From Gammaproteobacteria bacterium (lineage in GTDB: Bacteria > Pseudomonadota > Gammaproteobacteria > DSM-19610): a stretch of DNA of 46,597 bases. The notes under the pieces were generated by a model. The model was not told the DNA's origin and searched no databases. It saw only the letters and a list, made by a program, of their open reading frames with translations. The translations under genes and the position numbers were made by a program. Shown here one piece after another: positions 39,860-46,544 of the stretch; within the stretch, counting starts at the first letter, position 1, and each line of letters begins with the position of its first letter. The DNA is taken from NCBI GenBank assembly GCA_011374975.1, contig DRNU01000004.1, positions 1 through 46,597 of the forward strand. Reading direction: 5' to 3'.

Positions 39860-39983
39860 TTCTTGAACTCCGTTTGGTTTTATCGACAACAATGGGGGTG
39901 TCGCCCAGAACATAACGGCCGGGGCGTTTTTCCACTTGAGCCCGATATGTGTCTGTAGCGGTGGTTATTCGGCAGGTATGTGT

Positions 39984-40012
39984 TGAAACAATAAGTATCC
40001 GCTAATATACTG
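39984..40012 (+). promoter_or_regulatory. Sigma-70 promoter candidate for the small membrane protein gene
   Basis: TTGAAA (39984-39989) and TATACT (40007-40012) are 17 bp apart, five of six consensus bases each, about 30 bp before the ATG at 40042. It is one of the best promoter matches I found in the window. Confidence 0.6.
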
Positions 40013-40041: not shown

Positions 40042-40272
40042 ATGAAACTGTGCGAAGAATGCAGAAAAAAGCCCTGGCCCTATGCCATAGCGTTGTTTAT
40101 CTCCGGATTCGTGGCTTTTGTCACCTGGCTGACTTTCTCCGCCGCCGGGGTGTCACTTCTGGTCAGCCGCTGGGCGACCGGTATCGCTTTCCTGCTGGCT
40201 GTGATCATCCTGGGGACCTATATGGTTTCCTGTATGCGACGCCATTGCGCCGAAGACCGGCACGACCACTAG
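40042..40272 (+). CDS. Small two-TM membrane protein
   Basis: 76 residues: a CEEC motif at positions 4-7 near the N-terminus, then two hydrophobic helices (about 13-35 and 43-64), and a basic/His-rich tail containing MRRHC and HDH. No family was recognised. The two cysteine pairs (the N-terminal CxxC and the two near the C-terminus) suggest metal or disulfide chemistry, but this is speculation. A good promoter precedes it. It lies 106 bp upstream of the first sulfur-globule-type gene in the same orientation. Confidence 0.65.
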   Translation: MKLCEECRKKPWPYAIALFISGFVAFVTWLTFSAAGVSLLVSRWATGIAFLLAVIILGTYMVSCMRRHCAEDRHDH

Positions 40273-40294
40273 ACGAACGTCCGATTTAAAGTAC

Positions 40295-40323
40295 TTGCAT
40301 ATATTCGTATATTCTGAAATACT
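40295..40323 (+). promoter_or_regulatory. Promoter/operator candidate of the sulfur-globule-type genes
   Basis: TTGCAT (40295-40300) and AATACT (40318-40323) lie 17 bp apart. Between and over them sit two exact TATATTC repeats (40300-40306 and 40308-40314, period 8) and an imperfect palindrome, GTATATTCTGAAATAC (40307-40322). An AT-rich palindrome over the -10 region is where ArsR-family repressors usually bind. The leader to the ATG at 40379 is about 50 nt. Confidence 0.45.
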
Positions 40324-40378
40324 TTCCCTCGTGCTACAGATTTCAAACAAGATCATTCACATTTCGGAGAGAGACATC

Positions 40379-40921
40379 ATGAAAAAAATCGCAACTTTTA
40401 TTGCTGCTGCCGGCCTGGCCGCAGTTTCCGGTACCGCCAGCGCCTGGTGGGGTCCTTTTGACAACAACGGTTACGGTAACAACGGCTGGAACAACAACGG
40501 CTCAACCGATGGTGCTGCTGACGGTGATTTCGACGGTGGTTTCAGCATGAACTTCAGTGGTCGCGGCCACGGCCGCGGTCAGGGCAACGGTTATGGCAAT
40601 GGCTACAACCGTTACAACAACGGCTATGGCTATGCACCTTACGGCTACGGCGCGCCTTACGGTTATGCCCCGGCTCCTGCTGCCTATGCCGCTCCGGTGA
40701 TGGGTGAAGAGCAGATGAAGGCCCAGCGCGAAGCTTTTGAAGCCCAGCAGAAAGCCCAGGCTGAATACTTCAAGAAGATGGAAGAGCAGCGCCAGGCGAT
40801 GCAGAAGTCCATGGAAGAGCAGCGCAAGGCCATGCAGAAGTCCTACGAGGACATGATGAAAAGCCGCCAGGCCATGTGGGACAACCGCTACGGCGTCGCC
40901 CCGGCTCCTGCTGCCAAATAA
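40379..40921 (+). CDS. Sulfur-globule-type protein with a coiled-coil extension
   Basis: 180 residues. The signal peptide ends at TASA, giving a mature protein that begins WWGPFDNNGYG. Residues 28-106 are Gly/Asn/Tyr-rich with the NMNF-like motif (SMNFSGRGHGRG) and repeats of GYAPYGYG, as in the sulfur globule proteins (CV1/CV2-like) that coat periplasmic sulfur deposits of sulfur oxidisers. Unlike the short classical members it carries a predicted alpha-helical coiled coil (108-167), with near repeats MEEQRQAMQKS and MEEQRKAMQKS, then a short PAPAAK tail. GGAGAG precedes the ATG. A tandem paralogue follows 52 bp downstream. Confidence 0.72.
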   Translation: MKKIATFIAAAGLAAVSGTASAWWGPFDNNGYGNNGWNNNGSTDGAADGDFDGGFSMNFSGRGHGRGQGNGYGNGYNRYNNGYGYAPYGYGAPYGYAPAPAAYAAPVMGEEQMKAQREAFEAQQKAQAEYFKKMEEQRQAMQKSMEEQRKAMQKSYEDMMKSRQAMWDNRYGVAPAPAAK

Positions 40922-40927
40922 GCATTC

Positions 40928-40946
40928 GAACCGTTTATACCGGTTC
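40928..40946 (+). other. Intercistronic hairpin between the two sulfur-globule-type genes
   Basis: GAACCG (40928-40933) pairs with CGGTTC (40941-40946) around a seven-nt loop, followed by AACTTTT. The weak T-run suggests partial termination or an RNA-stability element that could set different levels for the two proteins, but a role is not demonstrated. Confidence 0.4.
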
Positions 40947-40973
40947 AACTTTTAAAGCCAAGAGGAAATTATT

Positions 40974-41357
40974 ATGAATTTCAGGAAAACTGTATTTGCA
41001 GTGATGCTGGCCGGTGCAACTGCGCTGTCCATGAGCTCCGCCCAGGCGTGGTGGGGTCCTTTCAACGACAACGGTTACGGCAACAACGGCTGGGGCAACA
41101 ACGGCTGGGGCGACGGCATGGGTGACATGTTCGGCGACGGCGATTTCAGCATGAACTTCAGCGCCCGCGGTAACGGTCGTGGCTATGGCCGCGGCAACGG
41201 TTACGGCAACAGCTACAACCGTTACAACAACGGCTACGGCTATGCGCCTTACGGTTACGGTGCCCCGTATGCTTACGGTGCTCCCTATGGCTATGGCGCG
41301 CCTTACGGCTATGCCCCCCAGGCTCCTGCACAGGCTCCTGCGGCACCTGCCAAGTAA
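40974..41357 (+). CDS. Sulfur-globule-type protein, short form
   Basis: 127 residues. The signal peptide ends at AQA, giving the same mature start WWGPF as its neighbour. The body is a low-complexity Gly/Asn/Trp then Gly/Tyr/Pro/Ala array: [36 protein letters not shown], then repeats of APYGYG and APYAYG. It matches the classical short sulfur globule protein layout better than the upstream gene and lacks the coiled coil. GAGGAAATT precedes the ATG. A strong terminator follows 24 bp after the stop. The two genes are clearly paralogues ([15 protein letters not shown] shared). Confidence 0.75.
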
Positions 41358-41381
41358 GACACCGCTTTCCGGCGGTTATAG

Positions 41382-41408
41382 AAAAGGGGCCTTCGGGCCC
41401 CTTTTTTT
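41382..41408 (+). terminator. Strong intrinsic terminator with UUCG tetraloop
   Basis: AAAAGGGGCC (41382-41391), TTCG, and GGCCCCTTTT (41396-41405) form a 10-bp stem with the very stable UUCG loop, followed by T to 41408. It ends the sulfur-globule-type transcript. Because the left flank is A-rich it can also serve the convergent ArsR operon. Confidence 0.9.
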
Positions 41409-41425
41409 ATGCGCAGGACAGGTGT

Positions 41426-41746
41426 TCAGTCATCCAGGTTGGTCTGGCACAGTACCGAGCGCATGCTGCCGATCAGTTCCAGCAGGGCCTCGTTGCGTAC
41501 CCGGTAATAGATACGGTTGGCTTCCTTGCGCGACACCAGGATGCGCTTGTTGCGCAACTGGTCGAGGTGCTGCGACATGTTGCTCTGCGTGGTACCGATC
41601 TGCTTGGCCAGTTCGCCCACGGTAATCTCGTTTTCGCCCAGCGCACACAGGATACGCCAGCGCAGCGGGTGGCCCATGGCCTTGAGCGCGTCCGCCGTCA
41701 GTACGGCATCTTCCGGTGAAACATCTTCGTCCTTCATGTCATTCAT
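41426..41746 (-). CDS. ArsR-family regulator with SqrR/BigR-like cysteine spacing
   Basis: 106 residues. It has a winged helix-turn-helix (LRWRILCALGENEITVGELA, recognition helix TTQSNMSQHLDQLRNKRIL, wing RKEANRIYYRV). Cys34, in the helix after LRWRIL, and Cys100, in the C-terminal helix (SVLCQ), are 66 residues apart, the same separation as in the persulfide sensors SqrR (41/107) and BigR (42/108). No metal-binding CxC motif of arsenic or cadmium sensors is seen. It probably represses genes until reactive sulfur species bridge the two thiols. I placed the start at the ATG at 41746; a TTG two codons upstream is possible. It is the last gene of the kinase / receiver-PAS / ArsR operon, 15 bp after the receiver gene. 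Confidence 0.85.
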   Translation of the reverse strand: MNDMKDEDVSPEDAVLTADALKAMGHPLRWRILCALGENEITVGELAKQIGTTQSNMSQHLDQLRNKRILVSRKEANRIYYRVRNEALLELIGSMRSVLCQTNLDD

Positions 41747-41761
41747 ACACAATATCCCGGG

Positions 41762-42619
41762 TCAGTCGGAGCATGTTTCGGTGTCCGCCGCAGGGCGGTA
41801 GCCGGTCATGTCCTTGGCAATGCAAAGTATATCTGTAATGTTACCGCATTCGTCGGTCATGGCGGTACGTGAAAACAGGATCGGCACGCGGGTGCCGTCG
41901 CTGGCGATAAAGCGCGCCTCGATACTGCTGAGGCTGCCGGTGCGTATCAGCGCTTCCAGCCAGGTGCCCATGAAGGCGCTGGCCTGTTCCGGTGCGTCTT
42001 CTTCAAAGACATCGCCGATATTGCTGCCGATCAGCCGCTCTTCGCTGTAGTCGAGCATGCGGCAGGCAGCCGGGTTGGCGGACTTAATGTTGCCGGTCGG
42101 CTCCAGCACCAGCAGCGCCTCGCCCATGCTGTCGATAATGCCGGCCAGGTACTGGTTGGCACGGCGCAATTCCTCGGTACGCGCGGCGACCTGATCTTCC
42201 AGCCGGCGGTTGAGGTCGCGCTCTTTCTGGATAAGGCGGAAGTAGGTGCTGATCTTGTTGATGAGCTGGTTGTCATCGATAGGTTTGAGCAGGTAGTCCA
42301 CCGCGCCGACCGCGTAGCCTTTCTGCTGGAACTCGTCCGTCTTGAAGGCGGCTGTCAGGAAGATGATGGGTATGTCACGGCTCTTGCGCCGGATCTTGAG
42401 CATGGAAGCGGTCTGGAAGCCGTCTATTTCCGGCATCTGGATATCCAGCACGATCAGGTCGATGGCACTGTCGCCGAGTGCGATATCCAGCGCCCGCTGG
42501 CCGGAATCGGCTTCCAGGACCTCGACATCCATATGCTCCTGTACCAGCGTGCGCAGGCTGAACAGGTTGTGCGGGTTGTCATCGACAATGAGCAGTGTGA
42601 AACCGGGGTAGCGACTCAT
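41762..42619 (-). CDS. Receiver-PAS signalling protein
   Basis: 285 residues. A CheY-like receiver (1-125) has the phosphoacceptor Asp59 in IVLDIQMPEIDG, acidic residues VDD at 12-14 and the conserved Lys in LLKPID. A short coiled coil (135-160) leads to a PAS domain (about 160-275; DSMGEALLVLEPTGNIKSANPAA). No DNA-binding, kinase or enzymatic output domain is present, so it may bind a partner or act as a phosphorelay intermediate. It overlaps the hybrid kinase gene by four bases (ATGA) and precedes the ArsR gene. Confidence 0.88.
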   Translation of the reverse strand: MSRYPGFTLLIVDDNPHNLFSLRTLVQEHMDVEVLEADSGQRALDIALGDSAIDLIVLDIQMPEIDGFQTASMLKIRRKSRDIPIIFLTAAFKTDEFQQKGYAVGAVDYLLKPIDDNQLINKISTYFRLIQKERDLNRRLEDQVAARTEELRRANQYLAGIIDSMGEALLVLEPTGNIKSANPAACRMLDYSEERLIGSNIGDVFEEDAPEQASAFMGTWLEALIRTGSLSSIEARFIASDGTRVPILFSRTAMTDECGNITDILCIAKDMTGYRPAADTETCSD

Positions 42620-44991
42620 GACGGCTCCTGTGACAGGTCATTTGTGTCGGCCATGCCCAGATAGTGATCAAGAACCCGTTTCAGGTCCAGCGCTTCGACC
42701 GGTTTGGACAGGTAGTCATCGGCGCCGGCAGCCAGTGCCATGTCGCGGTCTTCGGCAGCGGCGCGCGCGGTAAGCACCACCACGGGCAGGTGCTGCAGGG
42801 CCGTTTCGGCACGGATGCGGCGCAGGGTTTCACAGCCGTCCATGTCCGGCATCATCAGGTCCAGCAGCACCAGGTCAAAGTGTTCGTCGTCGTGCAGCAG
42901 GGATTCCAGCGCTTCCGCGCCGCTGCCGGCGGCCAGTACGCTGATATCCCAGCGTTCCAGCAGCGGGCTAAGGGCCAGCAGGTTGCGGATGTCGTCGTCG
43001 ACCAGCAGCACGCGCTTGCCGGGGTAATGCGCATCCGGGAGTGCGGTGTCCTGTTCGTTGTCGGGTCGGGCTTCGCCGTGCGGTATGGCGGGAAGTTTAT
43101 GCTCATGGGCCGTGTCGGCATCAAGTACCGGTGGCAGCAGCAGGGTGAAGGTCGAGCCGCTGCCGGTATCACTTTTGACTTCAATACGGGCATCGATCAG
43201 GGTCGCCAGCTCGCGGCTGATAGTCAGTCCCAGGCCGGTGCCGCCGTAGCGCCGGCTGGTGGAGCCGTCCACCTGGTTGAAGGCTTCGAATACCAGTGCC
43301 TGCTTTTCAGCAGGGATGCCGATGCCGGAGTCATGTACGCTGACCGCCAGCGGGTGCGAGTCGGCCTGGTCACCGCTGTTGCGCGACAGTTGCAGCGTGA
43401 CCTTGCCCTGTTCGGTGAACTTGAGCGCGTTGGACAGGAAATTGACAATGATCTGGCGCAGTTTCTCGCCGTCACTGACCAGCGTGGCGGGTGCCTTATT
43501 GTCAATGACCAGTTCCAGCTGCAGGCCTTTTTCCTCGAACTGGGGACGCATGATCTCGGTGACATCGCCGAGCAGTGCCGGCAGGTCAAGGGTCTCTGTG
43601 TTTAGCCGGGTTTTGCCGGCCTCGATGCGTGACAGGTCGAGGATGGTATCGATCAGTGTCCTGAGATCCCGGCCGGCAGCATGAATGACGCGCGCCTGCT
43701 GCAGCTGGTCGGGGGGCAGGGCGTCGGCCTTGTCGGCGAGCAGTTTGGACAGCAGCAGGATGGAGTTGAGCGGCGTGCGCAGTTCGTGGCTGACATTGGC
43801 GAGGAACTCGGACTTGTAGCGGTTGGAGGCTTCCAGTTCACGGGCATGCTCGCGCAGCGCCTGGGCATCCTGCGCGTGGCACTGCGCGAGGCGGGTAAGG
43901 TTTTCGCCCAGCTTGCGCAATTCCTCCGGGCGTTGCCAGCTGAAGTTCACACTGTGTTCCTGTTCCAGCACCTCGGTGATGCCCTCGGTCAGTTCGTGGC
44001 TGATACGTTCCATGCGCAGGGCAATGGCGCGTGCGACCACCACGATCACCAGCACCAGCACGGTCACGATGCTGATGACGCGCAGTTCCAGTGTTTTAAC
44101 AAACTCGGTCAGCGGTGAAGGGTCTACGCTGCGGCCTACCCACAGCGGCCCGGTGTCCTGGGTGATGAACAGCGGCAGCCAGAACATCTGCTGGCCGCCG
44201 AGTTCCCACAGCGCCAGCTCGCCCTTGGCAAACAGCTGTTCAAGCCCCGGGAAATCGCGGAAGGCGGTGGAGGTCGGTGTCATGTCCTGGCGGTCGGACA
44301 GGTATTCCCCGTTATTCTGTACCCAGTAGATACCGTTATAGATTTGCGCCAGGCCACCCACGTCAAGGTTGAACACCACCACGCCCTGCAGCTCGGGTGA
44401 ACCGTCTTCCTCCGACGTCGTGATCAGCGGGCTGATAAAACTCAGCGTCATGAAACGGCTGGGGTCGGCGCTGTCGCGCTGCCGGTTGAAGCTGATCGGG
44501 CTGGTGAGTACTGCGCCCGGCGCCAGTTTCAGGCCGGCGGTGAGGAACTCGGTACTGGGCAGGTCGGTTACGTGGTTATCGCTTTTGAGCAGGCCGGTTT
44601 TGCGGTCACGGTCCAGCGAGAAAGAGACTTCACCGTTACGATTGATGAAGATGACCTGGATGATATCGAGCTGGTCGAACAACACCCGGTTGGCCCATTC
44701 GGTATACGCCGCGCGGGTACGCATAAAGCGGTTGCCGCTGCTGTCTTCGCTGTCCGGCTCCAGCGCTATACCCGGCTCGGGGAGTTTTGCGAACAGGCGC
44801 ACCATTTCCTGGCGCCGGGTGATGTGCTGGTCGAGGTCGTGGAAATCGGTGCGCAGTTTTTCCAGGTAGGCCTCGTGGTAGAAGGACTCCAGCTTCTCGA
44901 ACACCAGCGGTAAATTGATGGCCAGCGCGACCAGCAGGGGGGTCAGCCCGAGCAGCAGGAGGATCAGGGAAATTTGACTGCGCAGTTTCAC
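42616..44991 (-). CDS. Hybrid sensor histidine kinase
   Basis: 791 residues. Two transmembrane helices (about 7-27 and 302-322) flank a periplasmic domain of about 275 residues of the Cache-like kind, not further identified. Then come a HAMP-like linker (330-380), a coiled coil, and a HisKA domain with the phosphorylated His402 (NVSHELRTPLN). The HATPase (NALKFTEQG, DSGIGIP, GGTGLGL) and a receiver with Asp711 (LLDLMMPDMDG) follow. The terminal receiver makes it a hybrid kinase, so phosphate probably passes via an Hpt protein elsewhere. The periplasmic ligand is unknown. It is the first gene of the operon with the receiver-PAS and ArsR genes and is divergent from the porin gene. Confidence 0.92.
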   Translation of the reverse strand: MKLRSQISLILLLLGLTPLLVALAINLPLVFEKLESFYHEAYLEKLRTDFHDLDQHITRRQEMVRLFAKLPEPGIALEPDSEDSSGNRFMRTRAAYTEWANRVLFDQLDIIQVIFINRNGEVSFSLDRDRKTGLLKSDNHVTDLPSTEFLTAGLKLAPGAVLTSPISFNRQRDSADPSRFMTLSFISPLITTSEEDGSPELQGVVVFNLDVGGLAQIYNGIYWVQNNGEYLSDRQDMTPTSTAFRDFPGLEQLFAKGELALWELGGQQMFWLPLFITQDTGPLWVGRSVDPSPLTEFVKTLELRVISIVTVLVLVIVVVARAIALRMERISHELTEGITEVLEQEHSVNFSWQRPEELRKLGENLTRLAQCHAQDAQALREHARELEASNRYKSEFLANVSHELRTPLNSILLLSKLLADKADALPPDQLQQARVIHAAGRDLRTLIDTILDLSRIEAGKTRLNTETLDLPALLGDVTEIMRPQFEEKGLQLELVIDNKAPATLVSDGEKLRQIIVNFLSNALKFTEQGKVTLQLSRNSGDQADSHPLAVSVHDSGIGIPAEKQALVFEAFNQVDGSTSRRYGGTGLGLTISRELATLIDARIEVKSDTGSGSTFTLLLPPVLDADTAHEHKLPAIPHGEARPDNEQDTALPDAHYPGKRVLLVDDDIRNLLALSPLLERWDISVLAAGSGAEALESLLHDDEHFDLVLLDLMMPDMDGCETLRRIRAETALQHLPVVVLTARAAAEDRDMALAAGADDYLSKPVEALDLKRVLDHYLGMADTNDLSQEPS

Positions 44992-45188: not shown

Positions 45189-46544
45189 ATGAAATTTCGA
45201 CTCCGTTTGCCCCTGTTACACTGCGCTGTGCTGTGTGCTGCCGGCAGTTTTTCCTTACCCGCACTTTCCGCCGATGGCGCCATGGACGATCTGCTCCGGG
45301 TTTTGCGCGACAGGGGGGCTATCAGCGCTTCCGAATACGAAGTTCTGAAGGATTCGGCCGCAGCGGACCGGGAGCGTGCCAGCCAGGCAGTTTCCGAGGC
45401 GACCAAAGACACGGTAAAGGTCAAAACGGGCAAGTCCGGTCTCAAGCTGTCTTCAAGTGACGGGGATTTCAAATTCCAGCTCGGCGGTCGCGCGATGATT
45501 GACGCGGCCTATTATGACAAGGATTCAACCCGGCTGGGTAACGGTGCGGAGCTGCGTCGTGCGCGTTTGTTCGCCAAAGGCACTGTCTACCACGACTGGT
45601 TTTACAAGGCGCAGATCGATTTCGCCGGCAACAGCACATCACTGAAAGACTTTTACCTGGGTTACAGCGGCTTTGACTCAGCTAAAGTCAAAGTCGGTAA
45701 TTTCAAGGAACCCTTCAGTCTTGAAGAACTGACCAGTTCCAAGTACATCACTTTCATGGAACGCGGTCTGCCGAATACCTTCTCGCCGGGGCGTAATACC
45801 GGCCTGGCGGTGAGTACCCGCGGTGATAAATGGGGTGCTGCGGCCGGCTATTTCTTTGAAGGCATAAAAAATGACAGCTCACCGAAGAGCCAGGGCTGGG
45901 GCGCCACCGGGCGTGTTCATTTTGCACCTCTGGCGGAAAAAGAACGCGTCGTTCACCTGGGTGCCGCGGTCAGTTACCGGGGCTCTGACGGGGACAATGA
46001 AATCCGTTTCCGCGAGCGGCCAGAGTCGCACGTTACCAGTACCCGCCTGGTGAATACCGGGACCATTTCCGGCTATGACAACCAGACCTTGTATGGCCTG
46101 GAAGCAGCTACCGTCTATGGCCCGTTCTCGCTGCAGGGTGAATACATGCAGGCCAGTGTCGATGTATCCGGTGCGGGCCCGGACCCGGACTTCAGCGGCT
46201 GGTATGTCTACGGCAGTTACTTCCTGACCGGTGAACATCGTCCGTACAAGGCCGGCAGTGGCACCTTTGGTCGCGTCAAACCCGCCAGCGTGGTCGGCCA
46301 GGGTGGCTCCGGTGCCTGGGAAATAGCTGCGCGTTACAGCAGTATCGATCTGGAAGACAGTGGCTACACGGGTGGGGAGGAAGACAATATCACCCTGGGT
46401 GTGAACTGGTACGCAACACCGAATGTCCGTTTTATGGCGAACTATATCCACGCCAGTACGGCCCCTTCATCGCCGGACGCATTCCCGGGTACGGGTGACG
46501 AAGATGTCAATATCTTCCAGGTGCGCAGCCAGATCGATTTCTAG
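45189..46544 (+). CDS. OprO/OprP-type outer membrane porin
   Basis: 451 residues. The signal peptide ends at ALSA. A short coiled-coil start (DDLLRVLRDRGAISASEYEVLK) matches the trimerising N-terminus of phosphate- and pyrophosphate-selective porins. The beta-barrel follows, with family segments QLGGRAMIDAAYYD, RRARLFAKGTVYHDWFYKAQIDF and KVGNFKEPFSLEELTSSKYITFMERGLPN, and it ends in an aromatic residue (QIDF). It should conduct phosphate or related anions; the exact anion is uncertain. GGGAGG before the ATG fixes the start. A Pho-box-like array precedes it. Confidence 0.9.
   Translation: MKFRLRLPLLHCAVLCAAGSFSLPALSADGAMDDLLRVLRDRGAISASEYEVLKDSAAADRERASQAVSEATKDTVKVKTGKSGLKLSSSDGDFKFQLGGRAMIDAAYYDKDSTRLGNGAELRRARLFAKGTVYHDWFYKAQIDFAGNSTSLKDFYLGYSGFDSAKVKVGNFKEPFSLEELTSSKYITFMERGLPNTFSPGRNTGLAVSTRGDKWGAAAGYFFEGIKNDSSPKSQGWGATGRVHFAPLAEKERVVHLGAAVSYRGSDGDNEIRFRERPESHVTSTRLVNTGTISGYDNQTLYGLEAATVYGPFSLQGEYMQASVDVSGAGPDPDFSGWYVYGSYFLTGEHRPYKAGSGTFGRVKPASVVGQGGSGAWEIAARYSSIDLEDSGYTGGEEDNITLGVNWYATPNVRFMANYIHASTAPSSPDAFPGTGDEDVNIFQVRSQIDF

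Follow-up and report, generated by a model that had tools for sequence, protein, structure and literature searches.

The literature examined seems to give no settled account of what switches on the genes for the coat proteins of sulfur globules, and the question is raised by a locus in a 46,597-nucleotide stretch of gammaproteobacterial DNA (assembly GCA_011374975.1, contig DRNU01000004.1; hereafter the window). Two sulfur globule protein (SGP) genes lie there beside a three-gene operon, here called the island operon, which encodes a membrane hybrid histidine kinase (HK), a receiver-PAS (REC-PAS) protein, and an ArsR-type regulator. We put a probability of roughly 0.58 on the reading, drawn from sequence and gene context, that the ArsR of this operon keeps SGP promoters repressed until sulfane sulfur releases it. 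The sensor would then be of a known type, while its operon and its target would be new. No regulator of this kind is described for globule-coat genes in open-access papers on sulfur globules that also mention an ArsR, a histidine kinase, or a repressor, as judged by titles and with most subscription journals outside the scope, nor in the available parts of PMC9774590 and PMC9995734. The conserved operon, found in our sample only in SGP-bearing genomes, and the candidate operator described below offer a directly testable answer to how sulfur storage is switched on and, if the reading is true, would add storage to detoxification and respiration as processes under persulfide sensing.

A sulfur globule gene pair beside a sensor operon

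The assembly holds 3.33 Mb in 249 contigs, of which the window is contig 4, and is 88.8% complete. The features that carry the argument are the following.

40295..40323, plus strand: SGP promoter with the operator-like element TTGCATATATTCGTATATTCTGAAATACT (29 bp; -35-like TTGCAT, 17-bp conserved spacer, -10-like AATACT)
40379..40921, plus strand: SGP1, with a signal peptide, an SGP domain, and a Gln/Glu/Lys/Met-rich, coiled-coil-like C-terminal tail
40974..41357, plus strand: SGP2, sulfur globule protein, second of the pair (PF17228)
41426..41752, minus strand: ArsR-type regulator of the SqrR/BigR/YgaV/HlyU kind (TTG start; likelier start ATG at 41746)
41762..42619, minus strand: REC-PAS protein (PF00072, E 9e-26; PF00989, E 1.1e-12)
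42616..44991, minus strand: membrane hybrid histidine kinase, with an N-terminal sensor region followed by HisKA (H402), HATPase_c, and REC (D711), from Pfam

A preliminary description of the locus had announced five genes, and the open reading frame (ORF) list and family scans recovered all of them where it had placed them. It also had the SGP pair facing the operon. The two are indeed neighbors, but the blocks run convergently, with SGP1 and SGP2 on the plus strand and the HK/REC-PAS/ArsR operon on the minus strand, tail-to-tail. They therefore have no promoter in common, and a divergent layout with a shared promoter is ruled out. The operon is tightly packed: the HK and REC-PAS genes overlap by 4 bases, and the REC-PAS gene ends 15 bases before the ArsR ATG at 41746.

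Both SGPs carry signal peptides and belong to PF17228 by the Pfam gathering score of 26.7 bits (SGP1: E 5.9e-21, 75.5 bits, residues 23-110 of 180; SGP2: E 1.8e-18, 67.6 bits), and in both respects they resemble SgpA-D of Allochromatium vinosum. SGP1, which is 51-66% identical in the 4 loci of its genus where the full gene was matched, differs from SgpA-D in the coiled-coil-like tail (judged by eye from the sequence) added to its SGP domain. The sgpD gene of A. vinosum has as neighbors a gene for an exporter and another for a probable two-component regulator, with no ArsR mentioned in the available part of PMC10386293. Its transcript rises 28-fold on sulfide (PMC10386293), which is the behavior that our reading predicts for globule genes.

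The operon is conserved and co-occurs with sulfur globule genes

The preliminary description had named a neighborhood conserved in no relative as the outcome that would count against it; instead, the same gene order was found in the genus and in other families. Within the genus, ArsR orthologs of 81-92% identity stand beside REC-PAS orthologs of 79-83% in 7 of 17 genomes, including the window's own, and all seven have an SGP sequence directly beside arsR and the REC-PAS gene. The close relatives that the genome scan returned with a name are metagenome-assembled genomes (MAGs), and their labels read Thiohalobacter, Thiogranum, Ectothiorhodospiraceae, or unclassified Gammaproteobacteria. With arsR, REC-PAS, and SGP together in 7/17 genus genomes and in loci of other families, the arrangement is not a matter of chance.

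A scan of one genome per species returned 74 ArsR loci. Identity is 66-91% in 24 of them (L140-L163) and at most 58% in the other 50, near whose ArsRs no SGP gene was called, the rest of their genomes lying outside the search. After removal of L243, L244, and L247, which have identical arsR DNA, and with L140-L145 unused as repeats of genus loci, 46 loci were compared. The REC-PAS gene lies directly 5' of arsR in all 46, and the kinase gene directly 5' of REC-PAS in 40 of the 42 evaluable loci, partial alignments counted (L146, L154, L160, and L245 meet contig ends). The loci L255 (G159) and L266 (G135) have REC-PAS and arsR with no kinase homolog beside them within 19.9 kb. In the subclade that holds the genus, 20 of the 21 loci that could be evaluated have a convergent SGP gene immediately 3' of arsR, the exception being L153; L160 was counted by profile only, L147 is masked, and L148, L149, and L163 end too soon.

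The association extends to whole genomes. Across a class sample of 369 genomes, 26 have an ArsR match of at least 138 bits, the next match scoring 121 bits, and 56 have SGP genes. SGP genes occur in all 26 genomes with the island-type ArsR versus 30 of the 343 without it (Fisher p 1.2e-24, a value that overstates independence, as the genomes are related; by their labels the 26 span 14 families). In this sample, the island-type ArsR clade is thus confined to SGP-bearing genomes, even where the SGP gene is not adjacent. Among the 30 SGP genomes that lack the island ArsR, no ortholog-like island REC-PAS was found, the three matches being 36-51% identical. One island locus, L159 (JABDRC010000084.1), comes from a MAG labelled as a Halobacteria archaeon; its ArsR groups with gammaproteobacterial rows, and the label is therefore probably a binning or labelling error.

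The ArsR regulator resembles sulfane-sulfur sensors

The sulfane-sulfur-responsive ArsR repressors SqrR (Rhodobacter capsulatus), BigR (Xylella), YgaV (E. coli), HlyU (Vibrio), and SoxR/sHdrR (Hyphomicrobium) are of the same family as the island ArsR. A profile of its seven genus orthologs matched ten PDB sequences, including YgaV (the top match, 63.9 bits), NolR (the second), HlyU, BigR, SmtB, Rv0081, and the 6o8n group, which is SqrR (PMC9774590). The preliminary description had read the cysteine spacing of persulfide sensors in this protein, and this holds. C36 and C102 (TTG numbering) lie 66 residues apart, are invariant in the 7 genus orthologs, occur in the island-type rows of the wider ArsR alignment, and coincide with the cysteines of YgaV, HlyU, and BigR, the three known sensors whose alignments were inspected. 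The corresponding pairs are Cys41/Cys107 in SqrR and Cys42/Cys108 in BigR (PMC9774590) and Cys31/Cys98 in YgaV (PMC9774250), and an intraprotomer sulfur bridge is the mechanism common to the group (PMC12423496). By this anatomy, two cysteines about 66 apart at aligned positions, the island ArsR fits the SqrR/BigR/YgaV/HlyU group, and we predict that it senses persulfide and probably has a target in sulfur metabolism.

It is also distinct from these sensors. NCBIfam assigns it to the metalloregulator ArsR/SmtB subfamily (NF033788, 84.1 bits; cut-off 55), and we rejected its assignment as BigR proper, since it scores 68.6 bits against the BigR equivalog NF040642, under the curated cut-off of 155. 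In a tree of 117 rows, the 45 island-type rows form one clade (support 100/99) apart from the 72 other ArsR rows; the tree rests on few columns, has many unresolved forks, and does not include YgaV, SqrR, BigR, HlyU, or SoxR/sHdrR themselves. The context differs as well, with the island ArsR being the third gene of a kinase operon and linked to SGP genes, whereas the known sensors are linked to sqr, blh, ygaP, or sox.

An operator-like element in SGP promoters

Upstream of SGP1, genomes of the genus share the element TTGCATATATTCGYATATTCTGAAATACT, a -35 and a -10 hexamer with a 17-bp spacer, present in diverged form in G004. Across 8 genus SGP1 promoters, mean pairwise identity is 0.89 in the spacer and 0.82 and 1.00 in the hexamers, falling to 0.49 and 0.52 in the 15 bases on either side and to 0.32 and 0.30 in the outer flanks. 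The spacer thus appears conserved in the manner of a protein-binding site and is our candidate operator. In shape and place, the promoter is similar to that of A. vinosum sgpD, which reads TTGATA-N13-TTATATACT and ends 79 nt before the ATG (PMC10386293).

Sites were scored with two matrices, and scores on their training promoters are circular. One, built from 15 island promoters, served for the window, the island loci, the class-wide SGP promoters, and the second ArsR described below; the other, built from 5 genus promoters, served for the genus SGP genes and loci. The best site in the window is 40295..40323; SGP2 lacks a strong element of its own there, its top upstream score being 10.3. Among 34 genus SGP genes (of 35 matches, G001:C165 being left out at a contig start), 13 score at least 24 and the others at most 11.6, leaving 21/34 without the element. 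Sites scoring at least 20 in 411 kb of genus loci are precisely these 13, all of them preceding SGP genes; the loci were mostly chosen for their SGP genes, and 5 of the 13 sites trained the genus matrix. A pattern search of the 17 whole genus genomes gave 16 sites, against 3 for the reversed control pattern. Seven genomes have a single exact match each, and the remaining 9 sites carry 2-3 mismatches. All 7 exact sites and 2 of the mismatched ones precede SGP genes, the other 7 mismatched sites (2-3 mismatches) having been left out of the reading of gene context. All 7 island genomes of the genus have the element on an SGP1-type gene, which lies on a different contig in G010 and G007, and so does G013, where the contig ends shortly after the gene.

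In related families the corresponding position upstream of the SGP gene holds TTGCTTATTTAAGCATTTGCTTATATTAT or a variant. Within island loci, every site scoring at least 16 lies at an SGP start, except those of L147/L243, beside masked stretches, and a reverse-strand reading in L161/L247. A search of 24 genomes with the Ectothiorhodospiraceae-type pattern returned only 6 sites, of which 3 precede SGP genes. We also compared the element with known operators, namely the SqrR/YgaV type ATTC-N8-GAAT (PMC9774250) and that of HlyU, which contains ACTAAATTAGT with a CTAA..TTAG core (PMC10509353). The genus element has ATTC and TGAA without an exact ATTC-N8-GAAT, and distant elements hold CTAATATTAG or GCTTATTTAAGC; the CTAATATTAG core of several distant SGP elements is close to the ACTAAATTAGT of the HlyU operator.

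Which regulator reads the element

Adjacency argues for the island ArsR as the regulator of the element, as does the pattern in G002 and G009, two genomes of 99-100% completeness that lack the island and have the element on none of their 4 SGP genes. In the recognition helix, the genus has QSNM where the remaining island rows have QSNV or QSNI, and this change falls in the same lineage as that of the element. This is a single event, only suggestive, and would hint that the island ArsR reads the element.

A number of results, here and in the following paragraph, weigh against our reading. NolR, the second PDB match, has neither cysteine, from which it follows that kinship alone does not prove a sensor. 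Across the second subclade, an SGP gene adjoins arsR in 0 of 21 loci (21 of the 46), three of which (L248, L253, L262) have one elsewhere in the stretch examined. The genus element is not significantly palindromic, since 332 and 281 of 500 shuffles were as good for its two spellings; the second-subclade form was equalled by 93 and the Ectothiorhodospiraceae-type form by 13. Unlike known sulfane-sulfur ArsR repressors, the island ArsR gives no sign of autoregulation: the scan upstream of the kinase gene in 39 loci (3 duplicates; L246 position invalid) found no element, the top score being -2.3. Finally, no class-wide tie of the element to the island ArsR was found. Scores above 12 occurred in 24/56 promoters from genomes with the island versus 8/24 from those without it (Mann-Whitney p 0.43), among 80 class SGP promoters hand-picked from the matches listed and covering 23/24 non-genus island genomes and 14/30 SGP genomes without the island.

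Similar elements in genomes without the island ArsR imply that another ArsR may read them. The candidate is a second ArsR of the window's genome (contig C26, 10107-10442; L096), which has both cysteines and is followed by genes that read, from their translations, as rhodanese, secB, and gpsA. Its relatives are widespread in the class: in the 8 genomes inspected among the 30 with SGP genes but no island, the ArsR is 84-91% identical to it, and a wider ArsR match (E 1e-25 or better) is found in 56/56 SGP genomes and in 120/313 others. In G362, which lacks the island, ACTAATATTAGT lies in the promoter of an ArsR 84% identical to it. It is thus conceivable, if appreciably less probable than our reading, that the element is read mainly by this rhodanese-linked ArsR or by several ArsRs of the family, with the island ArsR sharing targets with it or having others and its SGP neighborhood reflecting a common ecological role. 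Two observations speak against this: the second ArsR's own promoter region holds ATTATTGTATAAT in five genus genomes, unlike the SGP element, and G002 and G009 have the second ArsR without the element.

A further pattern search covered 13 genomes, of which 10 have the island and 3 lack it; it found 18 sites, against none for the reversed control. Eleven are clearly before SGP genes, one is on the opposite strand near an SGP gene, and six are elsewhere, five of which were read (G155:C8 was left out). The G214 site precedes genes for a rhodanese and a metallo-beta-lactamase-fold protein whose top NCBIfam matches are Blh (118.7 bits; cut-off 625) and then glyoxalase II (108.1 bits); in Xylella, Blh is encoded in the operon of BigR (PMC5823870). 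This one site fits the element as a putative operator of this ArsR group, whichever member binds it. The other sites read precede an HlyD-type adaptor gene (G081), a SPOR-domain gene (G053), and a short ORF (G362). The fifth site read, at G155:C2:158684 (L383) in a genome without the island, lies between SLAC1/TehA-type and peroxiredoxin genes, possibly pointing to a wider reactive-sulfur regulon.

The element might instead be a strong sigma-70 promoter shared by descent among SGP genes, with no ArsR operator inside it, which we regard as unlikely. Its hexamers are good, its genus form lacks a significant palindrome, and the SGP genes are paralogous; against this, the 17-bp spacer, which sigma-70 hardly reads, is conserved like the hexamers, the 21 genus SGP genes without the element include some that are second of a pair, and the G214 site precedes genes that are not SGP paralogs. 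It is very improbable that the operon senses another stress (metal, redox, or oxygen) through the cysteine pair, with the globule genes as one of many targets, for although NCBIfam reaches its cut-off only for the metalloregulator type and not for BigR, the cysteines align with those of YgaV, HlyU, and BigR, the clade is confined to SGP-bearing genomes in the sample, and dsrA is over its cut-off in 13/17 genus genomes.

The preliminary description had suggested that globule genes are controlled by a reactive-sulfur sensor, and this fared well in part. The gene order, the restriction to SGP-bearing genomes, the operator-like element, and the rhodanese/Blh-like site favor placing the globule genes under such a sensor, but the specificity of the element for the island ArsR did not emerge.

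Proposed mechanism and a possible role for the kinase

We propose that the locus governs sulfur storage as a conserved regulatory module. Its ArsR would act as a dithiol repressor that prevents transcription by binding the element which separates the -35 from the -10 in SGP promoters. Oxidation of sulfide or thiosulfate would raise cytoplasmic sulfane sulfur, a sulfur bridge would form between the two ArsR cysteines, and the repressor would leave the DNA, such that coat proteins would be made as zero-valent sulfur accumulates. Binding by the island ArsR, repression, and persulfide sensing are what we infer from the evidence above. The kinase, with its N-terminal membrane-bound sensor region, and the REC-PAS protein would probably supply a second input from the periplasm, the site of the globules.

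The phospho-accepting residues of a two-component phosphorelay are present (H402 and D711 of the kinase, D59 of REC-PAS). H402 is found in 37/37 rows and D711 in 34/37, and the receiver site of REC-PAS is intact (D13, D14, D59, T89, K112) and conserved at the 97% level over 46 sequences. In the order HisKA, HATPase_c, REC and in the conserved H402 and D711, the kinase resembles BarA, TorS, and ArcB. It differs from these types in that the best 25 NCBIfam matches listed are all below their cut-offs and in that its operon has no Hpt domain; Pfam found none in the three operon proteins, the search being confined to these and not extended to an unlinked Hpt elsewhere in the genome. Its partner differs too, as the Pfam scan found no DNA-binding or other recognized output domain in REC-PAS, which leaves the ArsR as the sole DNA-binding product of the operon. 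Given this, and given that almost every locus keeps the operon together, it is simplest to assume that the kinase is functionally linked to the ArsR; phosphorelay input into the ArsR, as the preliminary description had also supposed, may follow, and is the weakest part of our proposal.

The sensor region of the window's kinase matches no Pfam family and has no convincing relative in PDB, whereas dCache_1 was found in 3 of 32 relatives (top E 6.7e-8), alongside weak matches to Cache, CHASE4, and HK_sensor_dom. Cys266 in the PAS domain of REC-PAS is likewise conserved at the 97% level over 46 sequences and is possibly a redox- or sulfur-reactive site. A more elaborate scheme, which we consider doubtful, is a two-input switch in which the ArsR would read cytoplasmic sulfane sulfur while the kinase and a REC-PAS adaptor report on the periplasm and gate the ArsR by protein contact, with coat proteins made only when both compartments agree; if true, a two-component system and an ArsR repressor would here be coupled.

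Neighboring features

Two further features lie close to the genes discussed above.

40042..40272, plus strand: 76-aa membrane ORF with an N-terminal CxxC motif, 5' of SGP1
41386..41408, plus strand: terminator-like hairpin (GGGGCC-TTCG-GGCCCC, then seven Ts) in the gap where the two convergent blocks meet

The hairpin was read by eye in the sequence and is not among the output of the automatic hairpin scan. The preliminary description had begun the island at 40042, where there is a gene, but a separate membrane ORF and not an SGP gene. This ORF has no family match in the Pfam or NCBIfam scans; orthologs at 64-73% identity also lie 5' of SGP1 in G016, G007, and G001, and it is possibly a passenger of the island within the genus. 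The second-best element site in the window (39983-40011, score 11.0) is a promoter-like site of this ORF and is not conserved in the two genus relatives compared.

No dsrA match was found in the window's assembly (G000), probably because of an assembly gap. The inference that this genome is not that of a sulfur oxidizer was set aside, given a MAG of 88.8% completeness and the dsrA matches in most of the genus. Next to the kinase gene, a porin gene of the phosphate-selective type (45189-46544) occupies the same place in G016 and G007, where, at about 84% identity, it is better conserved than the kinase (69%).

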